DNA of 32,300 nt. It comes from Flavobacteriaceae bacterium. Lineage in GTDB: Bacteria; Bacteroidota; Bacteroidia; Flavobacteriales; Flavobacteriaceae. Shown here piece after piece: positions 6,749-17,137 of this stretch. The notes below the pieces were generated by a model. That model did not search any database. It saw only the letters and a program-made list of their open reading frames with translations, and was not told the DNA's origin. Where the stretch lies: the NCBI GenBank assembly GCA_029248455.1, contig JAQWJH010000052.1:1-32300 (forward strand). The letters run 5' to 3'. A program made the position numbers and the translations under genes. How positions within the stretch are numbered: the stretch's first letter is position 1; each line of letters opens with the position of its first letter.

Positions 6749-7846
6749 TTAACCTACTCTAAACATCAACTTGCTTACAGGATTCATATTTAAATCAAAA
6801 CATTCACTAACATTACTGAAATCAATGTCTTTGTGACCAAACATATTTTTCAAATCTCCTTTTTTGTCAATGTAAGGTTCAAGTTCTATTTGATTTGAAA
6901 TATTGTTAAAAACCTCCTTATACATAATAGATATATTTGTTGTGAAATATTTTTCACCTTGCTTGACTTTGACATTTCTTAAAAATACGTCTGTCAAATA
7001 AGTTGTGTTTTTAGGAATCAAATAATAGTCCTTGTGATTAAATTTTTTGAAATTATCAAAAGCAATTGAACAAAAAGATGAAATGAGTGCAAAACACATG
7101 TATTTTCTTGTATTTTCCCTTTGGTAATCGTTTTGATAATGACCTGATTCAAAAAGTATAGTTGGAGTACCTAGTGATTGAAAAGTATCTCCCACACAAT
7201 TTTTATTATAATCATCGTTATACCTTGAAAAACAATCAGGTATTAGAGTTGATAATTTTTCACTAATTGAAGCTATAATTTTCATACTTATTACTCTTGA
7301 CTTAGTTTCAGATTTTATAGAATCAGCAGAGGGTGAAAGAAAAGATAATATTGAAGGATTTTTTGTGTTTGAAACAGAATATATACTTCTTTGATCATGA
7401 AGATTAAAACAATAATGTGGTTTAATTTCTTTGTATAAATTTCTTAAAAGAACACTCTCCTTTTGAGTTAATAAAAGAGCATCTCTGTTGAGGTCCACAT
7501 TATTATAATTTTCCCTTGAATAAAGAAGAGCTCCGTCAGGGTTCAAAATTGGAATTATATATAGAGAGAGATGAGATAAGGAATTATGATCAATTTTAGA
7601 AAAATACGAAAGAGCATCATAAAGAGCTTTAGTTGAAGTTGATTCATTTCCGTGCATTTGTGACCAAATCAAAATCTTTTTCTTTCCTGAACCCACCTTA
7701 AAGTAATAAATAGGTTTATTATTGACACTGTAACCAAGGATCGAATAATTGTGTACTTTATGCAATTTATAAATACAATCATTAGTTATGTATCTACCAT
7801 ACAAGGATTTTACCTTAAAATCATCATAAAAATTAAAATCTTTCAT
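6749..7846 (-). CDS. M14-family zinc metallopeptidase (carboxypeptidase-like)
   Basis: The 365-residue protein shows the M14 zinc site: HGNE at 65-68 (His and Glu ligands) and His150 in FNLHDQ. A DLNRD segment at 118-122 corresponds to the substrate carboxylate-binding Asn-Arg of carboxypeptidase A, NPDG lies at 102-105, and the probable catalytic Glu233 is in LFESGHY. No signal peptide or membrane segment is visible, so it should be cytoplasmic, unlike many secreted M14 enzymes. Likely substrates are peptides or murein-derived peptides; the exact one cannot be told. The C-terminal 90 residues carry no motif I recognise. It is transcribed away from the XRE regulator, from a gap holding several palindromes, and its stop lies 81 bp before the Lrp gene start. 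Confidence 0.88.
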   Translation of the reverse strand: MKDFNFYDDFKVKSLYGRYITNDCIYKLHKVHNYSILGYSVNNKPIYYFKVGSGKKKILIWSQMHGNESTSTKALYDALSYFSKIDHNSLSHLSLYIIPILNPDGALLYSRENYNNVDLNRDALLLTQKESVLLRNLYKEIKPHYCFNLHDQRSIYSVSNTKNPSILSFLSPSADSIKSETKSRVISMKIIASISEKLSTLIPDCFSRYNDDYNKNCVGDTFQSLGTPTILFESGHYQNDYQRENTRKYMCFALISSFCSIAFDNFKKFNHKDYYLIPKNTTYLTDVFLRNVKVKQGEKYFTTNISIMYKEVFNNISNQIELEPYIDKKGDLKNMFGHKDIDFSNVSECFDLNMNPVSKLMFRVG

Positions 7847-7860
7847 TAAATAAATAATTA

Positions 7861-7868
7861 CAAATTTA
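7861..7868 (-). promoter_or_regulatory. Putative -7 box for the M14 peptidase gene
   Basis: The minus strand reads TAAATTTG, a full TAnnTTTG match, 14 bases before the ATG. Its expected -33 region falls on the 16-bp palindrome at 7880-7895. Confidence 0.5.
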
Positions 7869-7879
7869 AGGATAGAATT

Positions 7880-7895
7880 ATTTACATATGTAAAT
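7880..7895. promoter_or_regulatory. Perfect 16-bp palindrome in the M14/XRE divergent gap
   Basis: The bases ATTTACATATGTAAAT are identical on both strands. The site lies 12-27 bases upstream of the M14 gene's -7 box, where a bound protein could affect RNA polymerase. It resembles but is not identical to the TGTATACA sites in the same gap. Confidence 0.4.
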
Positions 7896-7931
7896 TTTTG
7901 AATTAAAAAATACAGTACAAAATAATTAATG

Positions 7932-7946
7932 TTACAATTGTATACA
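7932..7946 (+). promoter_or_regulatory. Candidate regulator-binding site, copy 1
   Basis: TTACAATTGTATACA shares 14 of 15 bases with copy 2 at 8070-8084. It contains the perfect 10-bp palindrome TTGTATACAA (7938-7947). It sits near the middle of the 237-bp gap between the M14 peptidase and XRE genes. Apart from these sites, the weak AT-rich stretch around it holds nothing I recognise. Confidence 0.4.
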
Positions 7947-8069
7947 AAATTTATATTAAAATAGTTAAATTATTGTTTTTAAGTATTTTATATATAAATA
8001 ATTAAAGTAAAGATTTATTTAAATATTCTGTTAAGTATTCATTTTAATTGTTAAAAAATTTTATTAATT

Positions 8070-8084
8070 TTACAAATGTATACA
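8070..8084 (+). promoter_or_regulatory. Candidate autoregulatory operator overlapping the XRE start codon, copy 2
   Basis: TTACAAATGTATACA repeats copy 1 with one mismatch, 138 bp away (about 13 helical turns). It contains the perfect palindrome ATGTATACAT (8076-8085), whose last bases are part of the ATG start codon at 8084. A near-consensus -7 box TAATTTTA (8065-8072) overlaps its left end. Binding here would block initiation. Confidence 0.45.
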
Positions 8085-8437
8085 TGAAAAATTTCAATAA
8101 AAGATTATTATATATTTTAGAATCTAACGATCTTTCAGCATCCCAATTTGCTACAAAAATAGGAGTTCAAAGGTCTAGCGTTTCTCATGTATTAAGCGGG
8201 AGAAATAAACCAAGCTTGGATTTTTTAATAAAAATATCTGATTCTTTTAAAGACATTTCAATAGATTGGCTTGTAAAAGGAACTACAAACAACAATTCGA
8301 AACATTCAAATAAAGATAACTTTCCCCTACTCGACTCTGTTAGGTCATCAATTCCTTTGATTCATAAATCTAATAAAAACATAAAAGAAATCATTCTTTT
8401 TTATGAAGACAACTCTTTTAAGGTGTTTCAAAATTAA
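8084..8437 (+). CDS. XRE-family helix-turn-helix transcriptional regulator
   Basis: From ATG 8084 the protein has 117 residues. Residues about 5-65 form a Cro/C1-type HTH: NKRLLYILESNDLSASQFA, then the recognition region IGVQRSSVSHVLSGRNKPSL, then a helix ending SIDWLVKGT. The C-terminal half is a low-complexity Ser/Asn/Lys linker and a short conserved end (KEIILFYEDNSFKVF) that flavobacterial homologues share. I chose ATG 8084 over an in-frame TTG at 8048 because homologues begin just before the first HTH helix. It is a chromosomal regulator, with no phage genes nearby. Palindromes TTGTATACAA and ATGTATACAT flank or overlap its start, suggesting self-repression and possibly control of the divergent peptidase. 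The lipoprotein gene follows after 13 bp. Confidence 0.88.
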   Translation: MKNFNKRLLYILESNDLSASQFATKIGVQRSSVSHVLSGRNKPSLDFLIKISDSFKDISIDWLVKGTTNNNSKHSNKDNFPLLDSVRSSIPLIHKSNKNIKEIILFYEDNSFKVFQN

Positions 8438-8450
8438 ACTACCTTTGAAT

Positions 8451-8852
8451 GTGAAAAAATACTATTTAACCTTATGTTTTTTGTTTTTTTCTTGCTATAA
8501 TCAAGAAAGGAATTGCCTACAGTTTCAAACCGGCACTTTTGAATTTGAATCGACATCTTCGAATGGAAACAATTTAAAGACTTACTTTACAAGAACTCCC
8601 GATATTGAAGTTGACTATTTTAACAATACTATTGACTCCTCATATGTAACTTGGGTTTCAGATTGTGAGTGTATTTTAAAGAAAATTAATCCGAAAAACT
8701 TATCAGAAGAAAAGTCTATTCAAATGAAGATTCTAAGCACCTCTTTCGATGAGTATACATTTGAGTACTCTTACGTGGGAGATATAGTAAATAAAAAAAG
8801 AGGAAGAGCTAAAAAAATTAACAACAAACCATTAGATAAAATTAATGATTAA
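8451..8852 (+). CDS. Small conserved lipoprotein, GTG start
   Basis: From GTG 8451 the protein has 133 residues and begins as a lipoprotein signal: Lys2-Lys3, a hydrophobic run, and the lipobox FFSC with Cys15 as lipidation site. The mature part holds a GTFEFES motif, a TRTPDIEVDYF segment, TWVSDCECILKKINPKN and a Tyr-rich end. I recognise this as a family found beside parC in flavobacteria, sometimes misleadingly named DNA topoisomerase IV by automatic transfer; it has no topoisomerase features. A longer frame from ATG 8403 overlaps the XRE gene and would place 16 extra residues before the signal peptide, so I prefer GTG. It probably sits on the periplasmic face of a membrane. Its function is unknown. 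It lies 13 bp after the XRE gene and is likely co-transcribed; it converges on parC with a 6-bp gap. Confidence 0.78.
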   Translation: MKKYYLTLCFLFFSCYNQERNCLQFQTGTFEFESTSSNGNNLKTYFTRTPDIEVDYFNNTIDSSYVTWVSDCECILKKINPKNLSEEKSIQMKILSTSFDEYTFEYSYVGDIVNKKRGRAKKINNKPLDKIND

Positions 8853-16072: not shown

Positions 16073-17137
16073 ATGAAAATACACAATTTTAGCGCAGGCC
16101 CTAGCATTCTTCCAAAAGGAGTAATTAAAAAAGCTTCAGATGCCATTCTTAACATAAATAATAGCGGACTTTCATTAATAGAGATTTCCCATAGAAGTAA
16201 AGATTTCGTTGAAATAATGGATCATGCTACTAGTTTAGCATTAGAATTATTAAACCTCGAAAATAAAGGATACAAAGCGCTTTTCCTTCAGGGTGGAGCG
16301 AGTCTTCAGTTTTTAATGACTGCTTATAATTTATTGCAAAATAAAGCTGGCTATTTAAATACTGGTTCATGGTCTACAAAAGCTATTAAAGAAGCTAAAT
16401 TATTTGGAGAAGTTGTTGAACTAGCCTCTTCAAAAGATAAAAACTTTAATTACATTCCTAAAGGCTTCGATATTGATCAAAATCTCGATTACGTACATTT
16501 AACAACAAATAATACAATTTTCGGAACTCAAATAAAGGCCCTTCCAAATACAAACGTACCACTAATTGCTGATATGAGCTCAGATATATTTTCAACAAAT
16601 ATTGATTTTTCAAAATTTGATTTAATTTATGCAGGTGCTCAAAAAAACATGGGTCCAGCAGGAACAACCCTAGTTGTTGTAAAAGAAGATATTCTTGGAA
16701 AGGTTGATAGACAAATTCCTTCAATGCTTGATTACAGAGTTCATATCGACAAGGATAGCATGTTTAATACTCCTCCTGTTTTTGCTGTATACACTTCAAT
16801 GCTTACTTTACAGTGGTTAAAAGAAAATGGTGGCATAAGTTCTATTGAAGAAAAAAACTCAAAAAAATCAAACTTAATTTATAATGAAATTGATTCCAAT
16901 GAATTATTTGAGGGTTTTGCTTCTATTGATGACAGAAGTTCTATGAATGCAACTTTTAATCTTAAAAACAATCAACACAAAGAACAATTCGACAAGATGT
17001 GTAAAAATGCCAATATTAGCGGAGTTAATGGTCACAGATCTGTTGGAGGCTATCGGGCATCCATATATAATGCTATGGACATTTCATCAGTAAATGTCTT
17101 AGTTGAGGTTATGAAAGAATTAAAAAATAATGTTTAA
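16073..17137 (+). CDS. serC: Phosphoserine aminotransferase
   Basis: SerC is a PLP enzyme that makes O-phosphoserine from 3-phosphohydroxypyruvate and glutamate; some also act in pyridoxal phosphate synthesis. The 354-residue protein has NFSAGPSILP (5-14), SLIEISHRSKDF (34-45), QGGASLQF (73-80), NTGSWSTKA (96-104), ADMSSD (166-171) and the PLP lysine Lys191 in YAGAQKNMGPAGTTL. C-terminal HRSVGGYRASIYNAM is the phosphate-binding end. Start is ATG 16073. The 71-bp upstream gap holds a near-match to the -7 box (TTAATTTG, 16045-16052) and an 11-base palindrome GAAATAATTTC at 16024-16034. serA follows after 11 bp. Confidence 0.96.
   Translation: MKIHNFSAGPSILPKGVIKKASDAILNINNSGLSLIEISHRSKDFVEIMDHATSLALELLNLENKGYKALFLQGGASLQFLMTAYNLLQNKAGYLNTGSWSTKAIKEAKLFGEVVELASSKDKNFNYIPKGFDIDQNLDYVHLTTNNTIFGTQIKALPNTNVPLIADMSSDIFSTNIDFSKFDLIYAGAQKNMGPAGTTLVVVKEDILGKVDRQIPSMLDYRVHIDKDSMFNTPPVFAVYTSMLTLQWLKENGGISSIEEKNSKKSNLIYNEIDSNELFEGFASIDDRSSMNATFNLKNNQHKEQFDKMCKNANISGVNGHRSVGGYRASIYNAMDISSVNVLVEVMKELKNNV

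Follow-up and report, generated by a model that had tools for sequence, protein, structure and literature searches.

A probable Cro/CI-type autoregulator and its putative palindromic operator between divergent peptidase and HTH genes of Flavobacteriaceae

Described repressor systems and the HTH protein

Autoregulators of the Cro/CI (XRE) group, among them 434, P22 c2, SinR, C.AhdI and ImmR, typically have several short palindromic operators and control their own genes. The operators of the BlaI/MecI repressors have the same core as those of CopR-CopY. In the accessible part of their description, the CopR-CopY operators are given as TACANNTGTA, a 10-bp core that also lies within the element described below, although the CopR/CopY repressors are of another fold. 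Transcription control in Bacteroidota is thinly mapped, and a regulator-operator pair that can be recognised in a family and beyond it would offer a handle on the conserved neighbourhood (Lrp, M14 peptidase, HTH protein, lipoprotein) in which it is found here. Among open-access publications, we found no title or abstract opening describing this operator or regulator.

The window analysed is a stretch of 32,300 nucleotides from a Flavobacteriaceae genome of 1,545,524 bases in 124 contigs, 72.8 percent complete. It carries a divergent pair whose start codons are 238 bp apart: an M14-type zinc peptidase gene on the minus strand (6749-7846, ATG at 7846; PF00246, 44.1 bits for a cut-off of 21.6), which is the putative divergent target, and a 117-aa HTH gene on the plus strand (8084-8437, ATG at 8084), which encodes the presumed regulator. 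The HTH protein belongs to the Cro/CI (XRE) type by its match to PF01381 (HTH_3; 42.6 bits, cut-off 23). The predicted model (mean pLDDT 79, pTM 0.52) shows an HTH of five helices and a C-terminal strand pair, with a linker that is poorly predicted. Among the fold matches listed are the HTH domains of 434, P22 c2, SinR, C-protein type (C.AhdI) and ImmR regulators, with a best E value of 1.4e-3 and none at or below 0.001; SinR was also matched by sequence profile (E 6.4e-5). The HTH domain is similar to that of RstR-family repressors (NCBIfam NF041951, E 2.6e-10), but the protein scores 40.6 bits, below the curated cut-off of 80. Unlike in the RstR context, no phage gene was seen among the neighbours examined. 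The locus differs from the Cro/CI systems in its conserved chromosomal neighbourhood and in its putative operator, GTTTACANNTGTAAAC, copies of which contain -7 boxes and, in most loci of the family, the start codon.

Putative operator copies in the window and in relatives

The preliminary description, made from the window alone, had pointed to two 15-mers 138 bp apart, TTACAATTGTATACA at 7932-7946 and TTACAAATGTATACA at 8070-8084, and to three perfect palindromes, TTGTATACAA (7938-7947), ATGTATACAT (8076-8085) and ATTTACATATGTAAAT (7880-7895). All are present as described, and the second 15-mer does reach the start codon of the HTH gene, its last A (8084) being the A of the ATG. The proposed core TGTATACA was set in the wrong register, as it occurs in 31 of 130 gaps of the family compared to 122 of 130 for TACANNTGTA; we rejected it, and the core is TTTACANNTGTAAAC. 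The 16-bp palindrome, taken at first for a separate element, is a third copy of the same putative operator. Judged by sequence comparison, the conserved element is GTTTACANNTGTAAAC and all three palindromes are copies of it.

Copy 1 (ATTTACATATGTAAAT, 7880-7895) is a perfect palindrome and a TTACANNTGTA place, with 2 mismatches to GTTTACANNTGTAAAC. Copy 2 (TGTTACAATTGTATAC, 7930-7945), half of the 15-mer repeat, has 3 mismatches, and copy 3 (TTTTACAAATGTATAC, 8068-8083), with 2 mismatches, lies immediately 5' of the HTH ATG, an arrangement also found in L005, L006 and L012. When the window was scanned with GTTTACANNTGTAAAC, copies 1 and 3 were the two best places and copy 2 was one of five tied at 3 mismatches. 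The 15-mer pair is unremarkable in the window alone, since 13 of 100 shuffles contain at least two such sites with up to 2 mismatches. TGTATACA occurs 3 times in the window (0.42 expected), the third time at 16786-16793, where there is no TTACANNTGTA place.

TTACANNTGTA, common to all three palindromes, has 14 distinct places in the own genome (18 rows). Three of them are in the 238-bp gap and are the only ones on the window's contig. With 20 rows for the reversed control, there is no genome-wide excess of the motif, and what is unusual is its clustering in the gap. If the other 11 places are taken as the background rate, finding three within 238 bp has a Poisson probability of 8e-10, a value that is descriptive only because the motif was chosen after the sites were seen. 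Rarity in the own genome, which the preliminary description had made a test of its proposal, was borne out by TACANNTGTATACA, which occurs only twice, both times at this gap, while its reversed control is absent. Eight of the other 11 TTACANNTGTA places lie within long ORFs, one at the edge of a short ORF and two between genes, and on this ground a wide regulon in the own genome was rejected. We also noted TTACAAATGTAA upstream of a serS-like ORF, at a distance of 14 nt, and of an era gene, at 5 nt (L280:801-812 and L287:801-812, contigs C38 and C78); these are either extra targets or ordinary -7 boxes.

A match to the HTH protein was found in 236 of 249 genomes of the family. The 130 loci compared are the best-scoring places, namely the window, 29 loci and 100 more taken in score order, with weaker matches excluded. 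Palindromes of the TACANNTGTA form, whose presence upstream of orthologues had been the other proposed check, were found in the gap of 122 of these 130 loci, with at least two in 98. The gaps hold 294 sites in 42,376 b, compared to a mean of 4.9 and a maximum of 15 in dinucleotide shuffles; the reversed pattern occurs 31 times, itself above the shuffle mean. Outside the gap, the same 130 loci contain 10 sites in 405,963 b. Exact TACANNTGTA is absent from the gaps of L018, L027, L028, L058, L067, L070, L105 and L116, that of L105 being cut by a contig end. Most of the HTH gene's named relatives belong to Flavobacteriaceae, e.g. Polaribacter, Zobellia, Winogradskyella, Maribacter and Kordia, and 79 of 80 named loci, a set that partly overlaps the 130, have a site (186 sites; reversed pattern 14).

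Beyond the family, 160 of 246 genomes searched in the order matched, and 16 of 20 chosen loci from other families of the order have sites (shuffle mean 0.44 loci). Across the class, 50 of 198 genomes matched, 44 of them outside the order, and 19 of the 24 such loci examined have sites (shuffle mean 0.40 loci). Conserved palindromes at the gene's own promoter and start, as expected of an autoregulator, are found at every level compared (122/130, 79/80, 16/20 and 19/24 loci). Comparison with relatives thus strongly supports the autoregulator layout first proposed from the window, in which binding by the HTH protein would be the regulatory step. L288, L291 and L292, outside the order, have five or six TACANNTGTA sites before the HTH gene and no detected M14 neighbour; one reading is that the HTH gene has other partners there.

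As TACANNTGTA is also the core described, in the accessible text, for CopR-CopY operators, a winged-helix regulator of the BlaI/MecI/CopY type could bind these sites, the HTH gene being merely one of its targets. We consider this very improbable and rejected it. PF03965, the domain of those regulators, is not among the Pfam matches of the HTH protein, the local regulator being an HTH_3 protein, and had no match in the own genome, where at 72.8 percent completeness a miss is possible. Moreover, the sites track the HTH gene across the class, and the strict forms of the motif are mostly found at its locus. TTTACANNTGTAAAC matched in 38 of 60 genomes, and where an HTH place was among the matches listed, 22 of 33 rows fall at the HTH locus, the other 11 lying elsewhere. 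TTTACAATGRTAAAC occurs 55 times, spread over 53 of 120 genomes (control 7), and in genomes with an HTH place among the matches listed 32 of 37 places are at the HTH gene.

Promoters, spacing and the start codon

In the accessible text of two publications, the -7 box is given as TAnnTTTG (PMC6847099, PMC9723704), and one of them refines it to TAHHTTTG, spanning -12 to -5, and puts the mean leader length at 33 nt (PMC6847099). The window contains a candidate -7 box for the M14 gene, TAAATTTG (7861-7868, minus strand), which matches TAHHTTTG and would leave a leader of about 10 nt. Copy 1 falls in the -24 to -39 region of this putative promoter, and the box at 7868-7861 thus agrees with the earlier placing of the 16-bp palindrome near -33 of the peptidase gene. 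The plus strand of the window showed no perfect -7 box for the HTH gene.

In relatives, the HTH-proximal copy, some 39 bp upstream of the ATG, reads TACATTTGTA in 69 of 73 cases, and the copy nearest the M14 ATG is the mirror image of TACATTTGTA in 39 of 40. The second copy on the M14 side has no polarity (AT 25, TT 24 and AA 21 of 76). From the polarity of the nearest copies, we infer that a -7 box directed towards the adjacent gene is embedded in each gene-proximal copy, which would give leaders of about 27 nt (HTH) and 13 nt (M14). Such a result could also be obtained if the sites were nothing but sigma-A -7 boxes (TAnnTTTG), made frequent by the presence of two promoters in the gap. In favour of this, TACATTTG fits the -7 box perfectly, and the polarity of the two gene-proximal copies agrees with it. 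Of the explanations weighed here, this one is the least probable, and it was rejected. A -7 box is not palindromic, the AT or AA spacers of many copies misfit in either or one direction, and the several copies per gap, their phased spacings and the copy at the start codon would be left unexplained. Of the 11 other TTACANNTGTA places in the own genome, only 2 are clearly intergenic.

The preferred reading, an operator bound by the HTH protein, is consistent with the spacing of the copies. Among 90 adjacent spacings below 60 bp, 24 bp was found 39 times, 34-35 bp 21 times and 43-46 bp 9 times. These steps of about one helical turn suggest that dimers would sit on one face of the DNA. The window's own centre spacings, 50 and 138 bp, are outside the 24/35/45 series.

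In most loci of the family, a copy, GTTTACAATGRTAAAC, is centred on the start codon of the HTH gene. This register has at most 2 mismatches in 12 specified bases in 100 of 129 loci (L105 dropped), compared to 17 of 127 for the next best register, and among the 80 named loci a central start-codon copy is found in 55. The window's genus and L012 differ in that the copy directly adjoins the ATG (L001, L005, L006 and L012). The nearest upstream copy is 34-36 bp away from 51 of the central start-codon copies. Codon usage at the start follows the motif: isoleucine at codon 2 is ATA in 64 of 67 genes (27 percent in the rest of the gene), valine at codon 2 is GTA in 38 of 38 (31 percent), and asparagine at codon 3 is AAC in 111 of 117 (31 percent). 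With codons 4-10 as a stricter control, ATA accounts for 36 of 70 and AAC for 23 of 45. On this evidence, it is a clear case of a probable DNA-binding site on a start codon that constrains both codon choice and N-terminal residues.

The start-codon copy could instead act in the RNA, either as a GUUUAC-AAUG-GUAAAC hairpin with the AUG in its loop or as an initiation context with A at -3. The sequence is palindromic around the AUG, and A is found at -3 in 110 of 110 copies, which had been selected at up to 3 mismatches. An A at this position aids initiation in F. johnsoniae, according to the accessible text of PMC6847099. The pairing is not kept, however: the outer pair is present in 60 of 110 copies and the loop-closing one in 36, and the changes affect a single side, which makes a hairpin at the start unlikely; 71 of the 110 16-mers have no stable fold. 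The same motif is also present upstream and on the M14 side, and the -3 context leaves the RTA-AAC codons unexplained. We therefore rejected the RNA element, to which we give very little credence.

Gene partners and the proposed regulation

A divergent M14 neighbour is present in 121 of the 130 family loci and 69 of 80 named loci, and 104 of the 130 have an Lrp-type gene on the M14 side. No solved relative of the M14 protein was found at E values up to 0.001. Its score with the MpaA murein tripeptide amidase family (NF007897) is 30.7 bits, far below the curated cut-off of 157, so that a link to murein peptides would be a guess.

Across the genomes compared, the sites follow the HTH gene and not the peptidase. 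In other families of the order, 9 of 12 loci without a detected M14 relative beside the HTH gene, one of them near a contig end, have sites; none of the 24 class loci, of which 19 have sites, has an M14 neighbour within the 1.5-kb flank. Conversely, 13 genomes of the family lack a match to the HTH protein and 9 of them have an M14 match. Of the 8 such loci whose M14 protein is closest, 7 lack a site and L137 keeps one. Compared to 122 of 130 loci with a site, this gives a Fisher value of 3e-7, uncorrected for relatedness. In those 7, sites may have been lost in the very event that deleted the HTH gene.

The small lipoprotein-like ORF (8403-8852, plus strand), presumed to be on the HTH transcript, had no match in Pfam or NCBIfam. 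It is linked to the system only by its position downstream of the HTH gene on that strand, in 117 of 130 loci and in 55 of the 80 named ones, and no operator of its own was found. In the preliminary description, peptidase, regulator and lipoprotein formed one switch; comparison with relatives strongly supports the peptidase link, whereas the lipoprotein would come under control through the HTH transcript. The ORF as listed starts inside the HTH gene. The GTG at 8451 may be its real start, and from there the product would have a short signal ending in LFFSC, a better-looking beginning (8403-8465).

Taken together, these comparisons make it highly probable that the HTH protein is a Cro/CI-type autoregulator, probably a repressor, of its own gene, of the divergent M14 gene and, via co-transcription, of the lipoprotein gene. 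A dimer of the protein (8084-8437) would bind each GTTTACANNTGTAAAC copy. As the copies lie over or beside two divergent promoters and the HTH start, binding would control the HTH gene with the lipoprotein gene, and the M14 gene. Adjacent copies in relatives have a helical phasing that would suit dimers binding cooperatively, and some signal would release the protein.

If the protein binds, repression is its likely effect. It is unlikely that it would mainly activate, or that its role would be architectural or that of looping the DNA between the cluster on the M14 side and that on the HTH side. Copies on both sides of the gap and the Lrp-type gene beyond M14 in 104 of 130 loci would fit such a role, but the -7 box inside the gene-proximal copies and the covered start codon are positions where a bound protein is expected to block.

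We hold the balance even on a broader form of the proposal, in which small HTH autoregulators, forming a lineage found across Bacteroidia, have retained a single operator, GTTTACANNTGTAAAC. Within Flavobacteriaceae, one copy would have fused with the start codon, dictating M-I/V-N and the synonymous codons, and the gene-proximal copies would double as -7 boxes of both divergent genes, so that operator, promoter and coding start would be one piece of DNA. Class-wide descent is the less certain as only 50 of 198 genomes of the class matched.

At 6 of the 8 HTH-less loci (L134-L138 and L140), a lipoprotein-like ORF is directly divergent to the M14 gene, as if the regulator had been excised. The next gene in L134-L137 and L140 encodes what we take to be a TerC-like membrane protein.
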